Below, one piece after another: positions 1-47,317 of a stretch of DNA of 47,317 nucleotides. Made by a program: the position numbers and the translations under genes. Numbering within the stretch: position 1 is the stretch's first letter; each line of letters opens with the position of its first letter. Location of the stretch: positions 1 through 47,317 of IMG/VR virus record IMGVR_UViG_3300032893_000084, one strand, 5' to 3'. The notes beneath the pieces were generated by a model that was not told where the DNA came from, searched no databases, and was given only the letters and a program-made list of their open reading frames with translations. Source of the DNA: a virus.

Positions 1-15
1 AGTCGCGACATGACT
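1..15. repeat. 15-bp terminal direct repeat, left copy
   Basis: The first 15 bases (AGTCGCGACATGACT) are identical to the last 15 (47303-47317). The repeat is itself an imperfect dyad, AGTC-7 nt-GACT. When the ends are merged the arms extend to GCGAGTC/GACTCGC. It could be the overlap of a circular assembly or filled-in cohesive ends; its place just upstream of the small terminase gene favours a cos site. Confidence 0.8.
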
Positions 16-66
16 CGCGCCGATGGGGGTGTGTGCGTCACAGTACCTTGAACATGTGCACCGTTG

Positions 67-876
67 TTAATATGAGCGCGTGATGCCGCTTTGCTTTTGT
101 GCACGCAGAGTGGCCGCCATCAGTGCACGTTCCCACAGCTTTGTGAAATCGCTGTGCTTCATCAGGCGATTCACGCTCTCGTCCATCCAGCGCCAACGGG
201 CATGGCGGGGGGCTTTGCCGAAGTGCTGAAGGATACGCACCCTTGGCGCACTGCGGCCCGTGCTGGGAAGGATGTAGCCTCTGCGTGACTTGATGCCATA
301 CAGACCAGGGGAGAAGCGGTTGCCCTTGGGAATGATCATGCGCTTGCCGTAGACGCTGCTCTCTGCGATCACGCGGATCATCGCCGCCACACGCGACTGC
401 GGAAGGCGGATGTCGTCCCAGTCCTCGGGCTTGGGGATGTTGGCCCCCGGCATGAGCTTGCCGCTGGGGCGCGCCATGTTTTCCCTCTGTCCTCCGCGGG
501 CCATGAGCGCAAGCGTTCTGCTTCTGACCTCGCGCTCATTGCCCTGGAGCGATCGCCATCCGTCGAAGGTGACGTTGCCGGACTTCCCGCGGACAAACGT
601 GCTCCCGATGGTGACGCGCTGCTGCGGGATCGGACGCGCTGAGGTTTTCTCCACCTGCATGCGGCTCAAGGAGAATCGCGGGTTACGCATGATGAGCCGG
701 CTTGCCAGGGTGGAAACTGCCAGCGGGCGCCAGCGGAAGCCCAGCTCGTTCAGGACGGTTGCCACAGCCGGGCGCATGAGGCCGGGGTAGCGCTCGAAGA
801 AAACGGCAAGCGAGGCGAACTCCCGAAGGTCCATGTTCAGAAACTCACCCCGCAGGTGTCGGAAGTCGTAGGCCAT
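67..876 (-). CDS. Uncharacterised basic phage protein (possible virion/minor tail protein)
   Basis: This 269-residue protein is rich in Arg. No motif identifies it with certainty. The C-terminal half (runs such as RVAAMIRVIAESSVYGKRM and RGYILPSTGRSAPR) has the look of phage minor tail or neck proteins, but that is an impression. It lies alone, divergent from the early operon and just before the candidate cos site on the circle. The ATG at 876 is six bases after a TATGCT -10 box with a TTGACC -35 box 16 bp upstream, so the mRNA is predicted to be leaderless; no Shine-Dalgarno is visible. Confidence 0.6.
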   Translation of the reverse strand: MAYDFRHLRGEFLNMDLREFASLAVFFERYPGLMRPAVATVLNELGFRWRPLAVSTLASRLIMRNPRFSLSRMQVEKTSARPIPQQRVTIGSTFVRGKSGNVTFDGWRSLQGNEREVRSRTLALMARGGQRENMARPSGKLMPGANIPKPEDWDDIRLPQSRVAAMIRVIAESSVYGKRMIIPKGNRFSPGLYGIKSRRGYILPSTGRSAPRVRILQHFGKAPRHARWRWMDESVNRLMKHSDFTKLWERALMAATLRAQKQSGITRSY

Positions 877-3681: not shown

Positions 3682-4703
3682 TCAAGCGCGGGCTGCACAA
3701 GACGCTGGCCGAGGTCGGCAAGATCAAGACCGGCTTCAAGGGCGAGAAGATCAAGAGCCGAAGCGGGGCGGAGTTCTCGCCTCCCAAGAAGTTCGATCAC
3801 TTCGTTATCACCACCACCGAGCGCCAGGGCGGGAGCAAGGACGGAAACCTGCTGGTCAACGAGCGCATGATGGCCAAGGTGGGAAAGGAGCCGCGGGAGT
3901 TGAAGATCCGGCTCCCGTTCGATTCCATCGACAAGAACTTCTTCACCCAGTACCAGGCGTACAACGGAGGCAAGAAGGTGTGCGCCGGCGACGGGGAAAC
4001 CGCAACGCGCCGAGGCGAGGTCACGGTCAAAGGCGACAAGCTGGAGGTCAAGGAAGGCCCGCTGCACGAGGTGGCATGCGACTACGCCACCTGCCCCATC
4101 GCTCAGGCCGGCAAGTGCAAGGTGTCGGGCATCCTGAGCGTGTTCCTGCCGCAGAGCGGAGACCTGGGAGGTGTCTACAAGTACCGCACACACTCCTGGA
4201 ACGGGGTGAGCTCCATCCTGAGCGCCCTGGAGTACTTCGCGGAGAACACCGGCGGGATCCTCCAGGGCATGCCGCTGAAGCTCGTGCTGGTGAAGAAGAC
4301 CACTGAGGAGCACGGCAGCATCAACTACGCCACCTTGGTGATCGACGGCGAGGAGATCTTCGGCCTGCGCCAGAGGGCCCTGGAGGAGAAGAAGTCCCGG
4401 GCGCTACTGGGCTACGACATCTCCAAGGCGGAAGCCGAAGCCGAGGCCTCTGGCATCCTTGAGGACACCGACCCAGAGGACGAGGTGGAGGCGGAGTTCT
4501 ACGCCCACGACCAGCCCGGGGTGAGCGACCGTCCGCCTGCCAAGCCCGAGAAGGGCACCAGTGCCGCCGACGTCGAGCGAAAGCTCGCCCCGGCGCCCGC
4601 TGCTGTGCACCCGGTAGCCGAGGGTAGCCCGGCCGCAGCGGCGCCCAAGGGAGGCCAGCAGGCTCAGACCGGCGAAGGCCAGCCGGGGCTGGACATCTTC
4701 TGA
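3678..4703 (+). CDS. gp3/recombination-directionality-factor-like protein, likely recombination or ssDNA-binding partner
   Basis: A protein of 341 residues. The core carries the features seen in phage proteins annotated as RDF-like (phiC31 gp3 type): a Cys pair CDYATCPIAQAGKC near residues 133-146, then FLPQ, GVYKYRTHSWNGVSSI and a helix. The last 90 residues are Pro/Ala/Glu-rich linker ending in GLDIF, which recalls the acidic-hydrophobic tip of SSB proteins. No serine integrase is present, so a role with the adjacent exonuclease in annealing or ssDNA binding is more likely than excision control. Coupled by ATGA to the gene before. Confidence 0.6.
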   Translation: MIKRGLHKTLAEVGKIKTGFKGEKIKSRSGAEFSPPKKFDHFVITTTERQGGSKDGNLLVNERMMAKVGKEPRELKIRLPFDSIDKNFFTQYQAYNGGKKVCAGDGETATRRGEVTVKGDKLEVKEGPLHEVACDYATCPIAQAGKCKVSGILSVFLPQSGDLGGVYKYRTHSWNGVSSILSALEYFAENTGGILQGMPLKLVLVKKTTEEHGSINYATLVIDGEEIFGLRQRALEEKKSRALLGYDISKAEAEAEASGILEDTDPEDEVEAEFYAHDQPGVSDRPPAKPEKGTSAADVERKLAPAPAAVHPVAEGSPAAAAPKGGQQAQTGEGQPGLDIF

Positions 4704-14126: not shown

Positions 14127-14494
14127 TCGAACGTGGATTTCACTGGTCAAGCCGGGCATGGTATGCCAAGGCAAATGGAAAAAGAGATCCCGAGGTCACA
14201 TTCGGACTATATAGCACCGAAGGCGGAACTACCGGGGAGATGATCATGCGCTGGCATTGGCTCGGTGGCAAATGGGTCGCCCGCCTTGAATCCTTCGACG
14301 ATTCGTGGAAGGCGCTTGCCTCATTTCCCGAATTGATCACCGAGCTTGAAAAGCAGGATGGCAAGGGCATGACTGACGATATATTCGTCACCATCCTCAT
14401 GCAACTCGGTTTCCGCGATCTCACGAATTACAAGGACCCCGATCTCAAGGAAGTCTGCCCGAAGTGCGGGCAACCGATAGGAGGAAAATCATGA
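14123..14494 (+). CDS. Hypothetical protein with C-terminal zinc knuckle
   Basis: A protein of 123 residues. A Trp-rich N-terminal half (FHWSSRAWYAKANG, MRWHWLGGKWVARLESFDDSWKAL) looks beta-sheet; the C-terminus ends CPKCGQPIGG, half a zinc site. GTG start overlaps the XRE stop. Base composition is a little poorer in GC than the neighbours. Function unknown. Confidence 0.6.
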   Translation: MIERGFHWSSRAWYAKANGKRDPEVTFGLYSTEGGTTGEMIMRWHWLGGKWVARLESFDDSWKALASFPELITELEKQDGKGMTDDIFVTILMQLGFRDLTNYKDPDLKEVCPKCGQPIGGKS

Positions 14495-15882
14495 AGTGGC
14501 ATCTTTTCATCCTCGGCCTCGCCCTTGCGCTGGCCGCCTGCCAGCCTCCGATTCCCGGCGTTGTGCACGTCGATGGCATCGTGCTGTCGGTCACCTCTCA
14601 GACGCTTCCCCCGGGCACGCAGTACCAACTCAGTGCGCAGCTTCAACCCGCGAACGCCTCCGACCAGGCCGTAACGTGGACCTCCAGCGCCCCTGGGGTG
14701 GCGAGTGTATCCGGTGGCCTCGTGCAGGCGAAGGCAAACGGCAGCGCCACGATCATCGCCACCTCGCATGACGGAGGCTTCACCGCAACGTGTGCGGTAA
14801 CCGTGCAGACTCAGGTAATTCCTCCCCCCGCTGGACTGACCGGCCCGGTGCTCGCCGCCCTCTACGACGGGAGCGCCGTTCGCCTGTGGGATGGAACGAA
14901 CACCGTGGTGTGGAAGACGGGTACCGCGAGCCACGGCAACGGGTCGAAGATCACCGTGGGACAGGTCCTGTATTTCCTCGACTCCTCGGGGGCGATCACT
15001 CAGGCGATCAACCTCCCGGCGCTTCCCGCGGGGGTGACCGTCATCGGCGACCCGGTTACCTACACCTTCGAGGCGCTGAGCGCGCAGCAGTCCTACGACA
15101 TCGACTACACCCCGGGAGCGCACACCCGCATCTGGCAGGATGGCGCGGAGTACGGCGACTGGCACGCGAACACCTGGAACTACGCCTCCAGCTTCGAGAC
15201 GGAAAACGGCGACGTGATTGCGTTGGATGACCTCGGACGCTTCCACGACATCACCAACGCGGCACTCGTCTCCAACCAGATCGTGTGGGCGGTGGAAGGC
15301 GGACCTCTGTTCTACGAGCCCGACACCGCCAACCCCAACGCACTGGTGATCTACGACTCCGCGCACCCCGGAGGGAGAAGCGTAACGGTGACCGGCGGCG
15401 GCTTCCCATGGCCCGGGCGCCAACCGTGGATCCAGGCAGGTGGCGTGTGGTACGACGGCTACGGCGACGTGTGGGATCCGGGAGCAGGGACGTTCACCAC
15501 GCATGCGAATGCCCTCCAGCAGTTTGCCCTGCCGCAGCCTCCGCTTGTGACCTCGCAGGGATCGGGCCTCTACCACGACAACGGGCAGTACAGCCGCATG
15601 ATCCCCGCCTACGTGGACTCCGGCATGGTGTTCTTCATCGAATGCACAAGCGGCTCCCTCATCAGTTTCAGCCCGTCCACAGGCGTGGCGGCGTTCGTGC
15701 AGTTCCTGTACACCGGCGACGGCTGGCAGACCACCGGGGAGGCGCTTTCTGCCACCCTGCTGCCGGAGGATATCTCGGGGTCGCTGTACTACCATCAGGG
15801 GACCACGCTGTGGAAGCGCGACAGCTCCAGCACGGTGATTTCGAGTTTCAGCGCCGACCAGAAGCTGTGGGTGATGAAATGA
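14491..15882 (+). CDS. Secreted lipoprotein with bacterial Ig-like (Big2) domain
   Basis: A protein of 463 residues beginning MKWHLFILGLALALAACQPP, a lipoprotein signal peptide with lipobox L-A-A-C. Residues ~28-110 form a Big2 Ig-like domain (LSVTSQTLPPGTQYQLSAQ, VTWTSSAPGVASVSGG, GSATIIATSHDGGF). The rest (~330 residues) is rich in Gly, Trp and aromatic strands, resembling a beta-propeller or beta-sandwich. AGGAGG precedes the ATG. It is expressed with early/regulatory genes, not with virion genes, so a host-envelope role such as superinfection exclusion by receptor masking is a reasonable inference. Confidence 0.7.
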   Translation: MKWHLFILGLALALAACQPPIPGVVHVDGIVLSVTSQTLPPGTQYQLSAQLQPANASDQAVTWTSSAPGVASVSGGLVQAKANGSATIIATSHDGGFTATCAVTVQTQVIPPPAGLTGPVLAALYDGSAVRLWDGTNTVVWKTGTASHGNGSKITVGQVLYFLDSSGAITQAINLPALPAGVTVIGDPVTYTFEALSAQQSYDIDYTPGAHTRIWQDGAEYGDWHANTWNYASSFETENGDVIALDDLGRFHDITNAALVSNQIVWAVEGGPLFYEPDTANPNALVIYDSAHPGGRSVTVTGGGFPWPGRQPWIQAGGVWYDGYGDVWDPGAGTFTTHANALQQFALPQPPLVTSQGSGLYHDNGQYSRMIPAYVDSGMVFFIECTSGSLISFSPSTGVAAFVQFLYTGDGWQTTGEALSATLLPEDISGSLYYHQGTTLWKRDSSSTVISSFSADQKLWVMK

Positions 15883-44301: not shown

Positions 44302-46269
44302 TCAGGGGCGAGCGATCCCGCCTTCCAGCCAGGTGAGGGCGTGGTTACTGCCGATTTCCTCCGCCTGGCGCTGCGTGGCCCCCTTCTCGCGAGCGGCCTT
44401 TCGCATGCCCTCAACCAGCCCCATGAGGTAGATGTCCCCTGCGGCCATGTTGTACACGCGGCAGTCCAGGGCCTCGTTTCGCCTGCCACCGGAGACGAAG
44501 CTGCCATCGGCAAGCTGCTCCTCGGCGGTGAGCTGCGCGAAGTAGGAGTCGGGGTAGTCGCGGGGGAAATCCTGAAATCCGCTGGGCTGGGGGTCGGCCG
44601 GGCGGCGGGTGACGGTACCCAGCTTGTTGTACAACTGCGCCTTGTAGAACTGCGTGTTGATCTCGTAGAGGACCTGGGTGACGTCCCCGATCTGGAGGAT
44701 CCGCCAGCGCTTGTATGCGGTGCCCGCGATGTCCCCTTTCTCCCGGCGCTCGGGGTCGGCCACGATCTGCTTGGCGCCCTTGCAGGGGAAGGTACTTCTC
44801 CAGCGTCCGCAGAAGGCGTAGACGATGTTGGTGACGTTTCCGTCCGAGGAGTCGATGAGGATGATGGCGGGGCCGAACTGCACGCCGTCAGCGCGCCGGT
44901 ACAGGAGGCCCGGGTGGTCGGGATTGCCCGCCCACTGGTTGAGCTCCTCCCAGGCTCCGGAGAATGGGTCCTCGATGGAGCCGGTGAACACCCGGTAGTC
45001 CACGCTCCAGGTCTTGTAGCCGCGGCCATGGCCGAGCACCTCCATCTCCAGGCGGGGTCCCTGCTCGGGGGTCTCAGGCTTGTCCTTGCCGCGCTGCACG
45101 TCGATGGCTGCCGTGAGGTAGATGGTGCCCGGCTGGACCTCTTTCTGGGCGTAGGTCCCGCGCAGGGTGATCACCTTTCGAATGTCGGGGCGCGCGCCGG
45201 TCTCCGCATAGGGCAGGCCGCGGTAGAGGTTGGTGAACGAACGCGAGCCCTCGGGGGTTTCCAGAGAGGCCATGTAGAGCCTCCAGTAGTCGCTCCAGGA
45301 GAGCATCCCCACGGGGGAGTACAGGGCGTTGATCTGGCGACTGCGCAGGGTGGGGTCGGATGACTTTCGCGTGGGCTCCCAGTGGCCGGCGGCGAGCATA
45401 CCGGTTTTCTGATGGTTCTGGATCTCGGCAAAGCAGTGCTGGCAGATGTAGACGGCGCGCAGGAACTCACCGGCCTGCAGGATGGGCTTGATTCCGTACT
45501 GCGCGTCATCGGCCAGATGCACCAGCTCCTGCTCGCGGCCGCATGCAGGGCAGGGCACGAGGAACTTGCGCATGTCGCCGAGGTTGCACAGGCGCTCGAT
45601 CTCCGAGTTTCCGGCGACCGTAGGGGAGCTGAAGTCCATGACCTTTTTGCGCGCCCCCCAGCTTGCGGTGTGCCCGAAGTTGACATCCGTCCAGTAGCCC
45701 TCACCCGAGGTAAGCAGTGCCGCGCGGCCGTCGATCTCATCGCGGACCAGCACGCGGATATCACCGGCGCGCAGGGCCTTCTTGGAGCTCGAGCTGATGA
45801 TGTCCAGATATCCGCCCACCACCTCTTTCTTGAACACCTTGTCGCCGGTACGGCGGCTCTTTGCCTCGTTGGTTTGGCTGGCGATGAGGTGGCGAAAGCC
45901 CATGGAGTCCACCATGGCGTCGAAGCGCCGTGTGCTCCAATCCTCGGCGAGCTCGTCGGTGGCCGTCACATACTCGCAGGCGGTCGGGTTTTCGAATTGC
46001 CAGTAGCCCACGACGTTCTCCGCGGCGGCGGTCACCCCGAGCTTTCGCGCCTTCATGGTGATGGAGTGCTGCACGGGTGAGAAAGGGGAGAGGTCGTCCA
46101 TGATCTCCACGAGATAGGGAGTGCGCCCGTTGTCCCAGTAGCCAGGGAAGGGGGTGTCGGGAGGCATCACGCGGCGGCCCTGGACGAACTCGCTGATCAG
46201 GCGCGCCGGTGCGTGGTCGGGCAGGAGGTCGATCTCCTTGCGGAAGAACGTGCGGTCGGCGGTGGTCAT
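44302..46269 (-). CDS. Terminase large subunit (lambda gpA-like)
   Basis: A protein of 655 residues from the ATG at 46269 (ATGA overlap). The ATPase P-loop-like MKARKLGVTAAAE (about residues 72-84) aligns in position with gpA's deviant Walker A; DIRVLVRDEIDG provides the acidic Walker B. A Cys pair (CPACGREQE, CQHC) may bind zinc. The nuclease part begins with LTAAIDVQ. It packages DNA and cuts at cos. The alternative start at 46311 adds 14 residues. Confidence 0.9.
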   Translation of the reverse strand: MTTADRTFFRKEIDLLPDHAPARLISEFVQGRRVMPPDTPFPGYWDNGRTPYLVEIMDDLSPFSPVQHSITMKARKLGVTAAAENVVGYWQFENPTACEYVTATDELAEDWSTRRFDAMVDSMGFRHLIASQTNEAKSRRTGDKVFKKEVVGGYLDIISSSSKKALRAGDIRVLVRDEIDGRAALLTSGEGYWTDVNFGHTASWGARKKVMDFSSPTVAGNSEIERLCNLGDMRKFLVPCPACGREQELVHLADDAQYGIKPILQAGEFLRAVYICQHCFAEIQNHQKTGMLAAGHWEPTRKSSDPTLRSRQINALYSPVGMLSWSDYWRLYMASLETPEGSRSFTNLYRGLPYAETGARPDIRKVITLRGTYAQKEVQPGTIYLTAAIDVQRGKDKPETPEQGPRLEMEVLGHGRGYKTWSVDYRVFTGSIEDPFSGAWEELNQWAGNPDHPGLLYRRADGVQFGPAIILIDSSDGNVTNIVYAFCGRWRSTFPCKGAKQIVADPERREKGDIAGTAYKRWRILQIGDVTQVLYEINTQFYKAQLYNKLGTVTRRPADPQPSGFQDFPRDYPDSYFAQLTAEEQLADGSFVSGGRRNEALDCRVYNMAAGDIYLMGLVEGMRKAAREKGATQRQAEEIGSNHALTWLEGGIARP

Positions 46270-46568
46270 ACTCGCCCCCAGAGTTCCCAGAGCGGAGGTC
46301 GGGTTCCCCACTCGGGAAGGTCATGAGGCCAAACATCCTCGCTAAAGAGAACGTATGGGGCATAGCGCAGTCGCGGGATCTGTCGGCAACGGAGTGCATG
46401 CCGAGCCGCGTCCCTTCGGTTGAGGAAGACTCCACGGTCGGTGACAAAACCCTGCTCGGCATGCAGATACGTCTTGCGCTTCTCATGCGTGAGCACGAAG
46501 GCCTGATAGTGGCGGAAGCCCTTCACCACCTCGCCATCAATCAGGCGAACCGCGGACGATACGATCAC
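46266..46568 (-). CDS. Small conserved phage protein between terminase genes
   Basis: A protein of 100 residues: VSSAVRLIDGEVVKGFRHYQAFVLTHEKRKTYLHAEQGFVTDRGVFLNRRDAARHALRCRQI...FSEDVW. The HAEQGFVTxRGxFLNR pattern occurs in many phages as a small protein of unknown function. ATGA overlaps with both terminase genes. Confidence 0.65.
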   Translation of the reverse strand: MIVSSAVRLIDGEVVKGFRHYQAFVLTHEKRKTYLHAEQGFVTDRGVFLNRRDAARHALRCRQIPRLRYAPYVLFSEDVWPHDLPEWGTRPPLWELWGRV

Positions 46569-47203
46569 TCCCCGGCCCCCGGGTCGCTGACCTCCCCGTC
46601 GCCTATGGCATCCAGGTAGGCGTTCATCTCGGTTTTGATCTGCGCCAGCGATCGGCGGATCTCCAGGCCCATGAGCTCCTGCACGCGCGGGGTGTCGGCG
46701 TCGGTGAGCTTGAAGGCGGCGGCGATGTCCGGGCCCAGCTTGTCGGCGAGCGTTTTCAACTGCGAGGTGTGCACCTGATACATGCGGGCAAAGATGCGGT
46801 GCACGTCGGTGCGTTCCACCAGTTCGCCGCGGCGGATGGCGTTCTGCTGCTCCTCTTTGTCCGCCTGGGCCACGATTTTTCGAAGCTCGGCCATGGAGTA
46901 GGTTTCACCTTCGAGGGTAAGCGGGCCTCCGCCCTCGGGGACCTCTGCGAGCTTTTTGCCCCGGGGTTTCCGCGATCCTCCCGACCGCACAACGCGCTGC
47001 GAGGGTTTGGCCCCGGGTTTCCCGCCGGAGGGACGATGCGCCTGGCGGCGCTGGCGCTTGGAGGTGGTGAGATAGGCGGCGTTCTCTTTCCGCGCGGGGT
47101 TGATTGATCCGTCTCGCTCGCGGATGACGCGGCCCTTGGCGATGGCCCCGGACACCGAGGGAGGCTTGACCCCAGCCATGCGTGCAAACTCCGCCTGTGT
47201 CAC
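46565..47203 (-). CDS. Terminase small subunit (DNA-recognition)
   Basis: About 212 residues. The N-terminus (VTQAEFARMAGVKPPSVSGAIAKGRVIRERDGSINP) is the winged-HTH-type DNA-recognition segment of small terminases; a basic linker and a C-terminal helical region (ELRKIVAQADKEEQQNAIRRGELVER...) follow. The GTG at 47203 is preferred because it follows a TATCCG -10 element by five bases; the open frame reaches GTG 47224, inside the operator. Confidence 0.75.
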   Translation of the reverse strand: MTQAEFARMAGVKPPSVSGAIAKGRVIRERDGSINPARKENAAYLTTSKRQRRQAHRPSGGKPGAKPSQRVVRSGGSRKPRGKKLAEVPEGGGPLTLEGETYSMAELRKIVAQADKEEQQNAIRRGELVERTDVHRIFARMYQVHTSQLKTLADKLGPDIAAAFKLTDADTPRVQELMGLEIRRSLAQIKTEMNAYLDAIGDGEVSDPGAGE

Positions 47204-47208
47204 GTGAT

Positions 47209-47214
47209 CGGATA
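47209..47214 (-). promoter_or_regulatory. Possible -10 element of terS
   Basis: TATCCG on the minus strand, 5 nt upstream of GTG 47203. No good -35 is visible at 16-18 bp, so the promoter may need activation. It has the same distance to the operator core as at 13565 and 35719. Confidence 0.35.
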
Positions 47215-47232
47215 CCACGTGCACAGGGTAGC
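47211..47232. promoter_or_regulatory. Operator copy 5 (GTGCAC-centred palindrome)
   Basis: GATACCAC-GTGCAC-AGGGTAGC, arms GATACC/GGTAGC (one mismatch). It lies upstream of terS, the first gene of the late operon. Confidence 0.65.
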
Positions 47233-47235
47233 ACG

Positions 47236-47274
47236 GCGTTAGGCGCAGGGCAAGCTAACGTGTTAGCCTAATGC
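47236..47274. repeat. Nested inverted repeats upstream of terS
   Basis: GCGTTAGGC (47236-47244) pairs with GCCTAATGC (47266-47274, one mismatch), and GCTAAC-GT-GTTAGC (47254-47267) is nested inside. It lies between the candidate cosN and terS, the place of cosB in lambda; it may be the small terminase binding site. Confidence 0.55.
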
Positions 47275-47302
47275 GAAGTTGCCGCAGGTCCGAATGTGGG
47301 CG

Positions 47303-47317
47303 AGTCGCGACATGACT
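47303..47317. repeat. 15-bp terminal direct repeat, right copy; candidate cosN
   Basis: Identical to positions 1-15. The bases on the left (47300-47302, GCG) and those after the left copy (16-18, CGC) complete a hyphenated palindrome with 7-bp arms around a 7-nt centre. Lambda-type terminases nick symmetrically within such a dyad. The distance to the start of terS is about 100 bp, comparable in layout to lambda cos-Nu1. Assignment as cosN is inference. Confidence 0.55.

Follow-up and report, generated by a model that had tools for sequence, protein, structure and literature searches.

A 15-bp terminal repeat as the probable cos site of a contractile-tailed phage genome with a gpA-type terminase

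Introduction

Do the two ends of a viral record that share 15 bp mark the natural ends of a packaged chromosome? The window analysed here is a whole IMG/VR virus record of 47,317 bp, which the database classes as linear and without end repeats. A first-pass annotation had found that its ends share 15 bp and that, after joining, GCGAGTC and GACTCGC flank a 7-nt centre. It had proposed a candidate cos site, pointing to a gpA-like terminase, to the position just upstream of terS and to 5' overhangs of 15 nt, which on filling-in would duplicate the ends. In phage lambda, the two-fold symmetric cosN is presumably nicked by a pair of TerL protomers that TerS anchors on cosB, and termination of packaging needs cosQ (PMC9026076, PMC4669245).

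Results

The terminal repeat and its dyad

The sequence AGTCGCGACATGACT was found at both ends of the window (1-15 and 47303-47317) with no third copy on either strand, and the longest terminal overlap was exactly 15 bp. At the base composition of the window, an exact end match of this length has a chance probability of about 3e-9. Joining of the ends generated the dyad GCGAGTC-GCGACAT-GACTCGC, which is present only in the joined form and is centred exactly on the repeat (47300-47317 plus 16-18), confirming both sequence features of the first-pass annotation. Dyads with a 7-7-7 layout are by themselves not rare (4 seen in the circularised window, about 5 expected), and the generic pattern GCGAGTC-N7-GACTCGC was found in 113 stretches of viral contigs and is therefore not specific. 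Exact centring of the dyad on the terminal repeat is improbable (about 1e-4).

Genes around the site

The features of the region are listed in Table 1. On the minus strand the order is the site, terS, a gpA-type terL and a lambda-type portal gene, while the gene at the other end of the window runs toward the site. From the coordinates of terS and the adjoining repeat copy, the repeat lies 78 bp upstream of the terS start adopted here. A gpA-type TerL and a TerS coexist in this genome, as membership of the lambda-type 5' cos phages requires. Tail sheath and baseplate proteins are also encoded in the window, so the phage is contractile-tailed. Neither a tyrosine integrase (PF00589) nor a serine resolvase (PF00239) was found in the window. 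Elsewhere, a long GA dinucleotide run with CTTGCTTG repeats occupies an intergenic stretch ahead of the early genes (950-1100), and a gene on the strand of the replication genes (14464-15882, +) codes for 472 aa including an Ig-like domain (phrog_215, phrog_341 and further tail/head families).

Table 1. Features at and around the terminal repeat (window coordinates; cosQ and cosB labels are assigned by position and resemblance)
Feature	Position	Strand	Remarks
Cohesive-end copy, window start	1..15	-	Right-hand chromosome end when terS-terL is read left to right; exact 15-bp repeat
Outer 3 bp of second dyad arm (CGC)	16..18	.	Completes dyad on joining
cosQ-like element AAGGTACTGTGAC (AAGGTACTGTG invariant in 7/7 site-crossing sequences)	37..49	-	GGTACT 26 nt before predicted nick
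Gene that comes last when the chromosome is packaged	67..876	-	Homologues just upstream of site in L004, L005, L006, L123, L124; in L213 by tblastn
terL, gpA-type terminase large subunit	44302..46311	-	ATPase PF05876 1e-45, nuclease PF20454 2e-42, phrog_15 1e-116
terS, terminase small subunit	46565..47224	-	phrog_57 3.5e-20; same-place homologues in L003, L004, L006, L123
Possible TerS-binding repeats GGCTAAC, GTTAGCT, GCCTAAC	47238..47268	-	Not significant alone in the window
cosB-like conserved GGACCTGCGG	47282..47291	-	13 nt past conserved TCATGTCGCGA core in window, L003, L004, L006
Dyad arm GCGAGTC (47300-47306), 7-nt centre GCGACAT (47307-47313), first 4 nt of right arm	47300..47317	.	
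Cohesive-end copy adjoining terS, cosN	47303..47317	-	Left-hand packaged end, AGTC-ATGTCGC-GACT; homologous base is contig end in relatives
Predicted nicks	between 15 and 16; between 47302 and 47303		

Relatives whose contigs cross the site

The site was internal in the contigs of six relatives (L004, L005, L006, L123, L124 and L213). A homologue of gene 67-876 was directly upstream of it in 6/6, with 30-58% identity in the first five (blastp), and terS was directly downstream in those that were read (L004, L005, L006, L123 and L124). Since the same upstream gene and terS flank the site in these relatives, the two ends of the window are adjacent in nature; judged from the six contigs, they are joined in the replicating or concatemeric form. 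Contigs ending on the side of the upstream gene were also searched for, and only crossing contigs were found. Both ends are therefore shown by the window contig alone, and the 15-nt length and the 5' polarity rest on this one contig plus the symmetry of the site.

The aligned block in the crossing relatives consists of AAGGTACTGTG(AC), about 25 nt, and a dyad with the centre (A/T)TGTCGC. In 7/7 site-crossing sequences AAGGTACTGTG and TGTCGC show no variation and keep a near-fixed distance. Compared with that of the window, the TerS of L124 (2780-3552) is not alignable and that of L005 (around 3755-4495) is barely so. The downstream stretch in these two contigs differs from that of the window, yet they keep the upstream cosQ-like element and the dyad, as lambda-like phages keep cosQ and cosN while cosB varies (PMC4669245). 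The window has three GTTAGSC-like copies between the site and terS, which are not above shuffles (0.41), while L124, L213 and L123 have significant repeats different from these, with arrays between the site and terS in L124 and L213. The TerS divergence of L124 and L005, together with the arrays proper to L124 and L213, suggests exchange of a TerS-cosB module.

The upstream GGTACTGTG element stands at near-fixed spacing from the site and resembles the cosQ of lambda. The lambda record has GGTCCT 23 nt before the nick, and in the window GGTACT ends 26 nt before the predicted nick. Occurrences of the motif GGTNCT likewise start at 27, 36 and 39 bp from the record ends in Rhodobacter phage RcKemmy (GGTTCT, 27) and two Vibrio gpA phages; the motif was absent from the stretch examined of LPPA36, whose record is circular.

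Covariation of the dyad arms

The inner arms vary in a compensating fashion (AGTC/GACT, CATC/GATG, CGTC/GACG and CCTC/GAGG). Across the seven crossing sequences, 93.9% of the arm cells were paired (G-T scored as a pair) and 3 pairs were altered on both sides; the covariation score was matched in 5/500 shuffles, and slid controls were far lower. For the inner four pairs in 13 sequences, 41/52 were matched against 31.5 in shuffles (fraction 4e-5; 6e-4 with one row per distinct arm pair). These shuffle figures are indications and not probabilities, because shuffling ignores relatedness. Pairing was weak (1-2/4 pairs) in L125, L127, L128 and L236. Centred on the repeat and with compensating changes, the arms fit a two-fold symmetric nicking site.

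Relatives whose contigs end at the site

The L003 contig (95% nucleotide identity) terminates at the base identical to that of the window. Six more distant contigs, with TerL about 40-55% identical to that of the window or of L130, start exactly 4 nt before the homologous heptamer, as the window does. Taken in the order L125, L127, L128, L130, L234 and L236, their starts are CTAA/ATGTCGC, AGGT/TGTTCGC, CGTG/TAGTCGC, CGTC/CTGTCGC, CCTC/ATGTCGC and AGTC/ATGTCGC (the stroke precedes the heptamer). The heptamer consensus among contigs ending at the site is NTGTCGC, and the placement of L127 is ambiguous by 1 nt. The start of L239 is within 2 nt of the site position, and no site heptamer could be recognised in L126, L235, L238 and L240, whose starts are also near terS; the first 60 nt of L126 and of L235 could be diverged cos sites or ordinary breaks.

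A fixed chromosome end was thus found, the window and seven further contigs ending at the homologous base. Under random placement of ends over 300 bp, the probability of 7/12 falling on one base is about 4e-15; this figure is idealised, since recognition of the site in the more distant contigs was by eye. In a control set of about 30 gpA contigs of greater distance, which start near terL, the pattern occurred once only, in L179, whose start resembles the site; it was set aside as it falls inside an ORF. At the far ends of L003, L125 and L130, the three looked at, no matching repeat was present.

Discussion

The terminal repeat is very probably the cos site of a contractile-tailed phage whose complete linear genome is represented by the window. 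A gpA terminase would cut it in the 5' manner of lambda, leaving 15-nt overhangs that were later filled in. Because relatives from other samples end at the same base, we regard it as a real but ordinary cos site. In the proposed mechanism, for which we infer the strand polarity, the exact overhang length, the roles of TerS and TerL and the function of cosQ, TerS would bind the DNA beside its own gene and place a pair of gpA-type TerL subunits in symmetrical arrangement on the dyad, which reads GCGAGTC-ATGTCGC-GACTCGC on the terS strand. Each TerL would nick one strand 4 nt outside the heptamer, giving a stagger of 4+7+4 = 15 nt and 5' overhangs of AGTCATGTCGCGACT and its complement. The upstream GGTACTGTG element may act like the cosQ of lambda in ending packaging, and after injection the overhangs would anneal and the genome circularise. 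Library end-repair would have filled the overhangs in, so that each end of the contig carries the 15 bp. Duplicated ends are expected from 5' overhangs after end-filling but not from 3' overhangs, and are seen here in the one contig that has both ends. According to the PhageTerm authors, assemblers tend to put cos ends at the limits of contigs, and the filling-in of 5' overhangs leaves a shared end sequence whereas 3' overhangs are cut (PMC5557969); the shared sequence at the contig ends of the window fits this description of 5' cos ends. The first-pass annotation had reasoned from the gpA-like terminase, the location directly upstream of terS and putative 5' overhangs that had been filled in. 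Sequence comparison with related phages supported this reasoning, since ends at the same base, crossing contigs with the same adjacent flanks and a covarying dyad were found. A folded-end mechanism was also considered and was dropped because the 15-nt overhangs form only weak hairpins, at -0.6 and -1.2 kcal/mol, with no clear advantage over shuffles.

Circular assemblies leave duplicated ends too, and 15 bp is a short match, so the repeat might have arisen by chance or as an overlap left by the assembler in a circular molecule, without any physical end. Against this stand the chance figure of about 3e-9, the contigs of L003, L125, L127, L128, L130, L234 and L236, which are partial and yet end at the same base, the three far ends without such a repeat, and the centring on a covarying dyad. 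Common assembly k-mers, of 21 and up, are also longer than 15. Taken together, this origin is highly improbable. Very short direct terminal repeats made by T7-like extension synthesis, instead of single-stranded overhangs, would duplicate the ends as well and are only marginally easier to credit: repeats of this kind are cited down to 131 bp, while cohesive ends reach 19 nt (PMC5557969), and the TerL is of the gpA type, in which those relatives whose ends have been mapped carry 5' overhangs (lambda 12, PMC4669245; RcKemmy 11, PMC8601537).

The 15-bp direct repeat, with 7-bp arms round a 7-bp centre, also looks like the core of attL and attR of a tyrosine integrase, in which case the window would be a prophage excised at these sites; att repeats of 15 bp are known from VarioGold (PMC9658991). 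As noted above, the window has neither a PF00589 integrase nor a PF00239 resolvase. In the crossing relatives phage genes and not host DNA lie on both sides, the site goes together with terS wherever relatives were read, and among 84,980 prokaryote genomes there was no relative by TerL and no match to the site pattern. We consider a prophage origin of the repeat just as improbable as an assembly artefact. Set beside the preferred reading of an ordinary lambda-type cos, it is unlikely, though less so than the foregoing, that the lineage represents a separate cos class with a gpA terminase, a 15-nt stagger, a long dyad and arms that drift freely while complementary. Under that reading, since the arms drift and stay complementary, the enzyme (or a transient cruciform) would read symmetry and not arm sequence.

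The probable cos of the window is like that of lambda (cosQ-cosN-cosB, gpNu1/gpA) in its gpA-type TerL, the site just upstream of terS, the two-fold symmetric nicking site, the upstream GGTNCT element and, as predicted here, the 5' overhangs (PMC4669245, PMC9026076). It differs in the overhang, 15 nt against 12 nt and of unrelated sequence, in a stronger dyad in its lineage (arms of 7-9 bp in some members), in having no demonstrable R-site set or IHF site in the window, and in belonging to a contractile-tailed phage whose TerL is only distantly related. If lambda-like is taken in the sense of Feiss, as 12-base 5' ends similar to those of lambda, the window falls outside it, since its 15 bp show no resemblance to the 12 bases of lambda. 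The TerL is about 30% identical to those of RcKemmy and the RcC cluster, in which fixed 5' overhang ends have been mapped. In contrast to the window, RcKemmy has an 11-base overhang (PMC8601537), is a siphovirus and has several genes between the record start and terS.

The terminase of P2 belongs to a different family, of the gpP type. The window resembles P2-type cos in its long cohesive ends (19 nt in P2, PMC5557969). A 15-nt stagger is unusually long for the gpA terminase family, although the kind of cos is itself known. Among 50,697 annotated phage records, none was close by DNA, cos region or upstream gene. The literature searched contained no description of a 5' cos with 15 nt, which is not proof of absence. 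What is new is thus the 15-nt length (12 in lambda, 11 in RcKemmy) and a lineage absent from the annotated phage records.

Conclusions

The results indicate that the window represents an entire genome whose natural ends are those of the record, despite its database class of linear without end repeats, and they supply a packaging strategy for a phage lineage without a close annotated relative. They also suggest that gpA terminases can leave overhangs of 11 to 15 nt. Since the contigs of the six distant relatives begin at the predicted nick, contig ends can be used as terminus data without reads, and lining up the ends of related metagenomic contigs can reveal physical phage termini.
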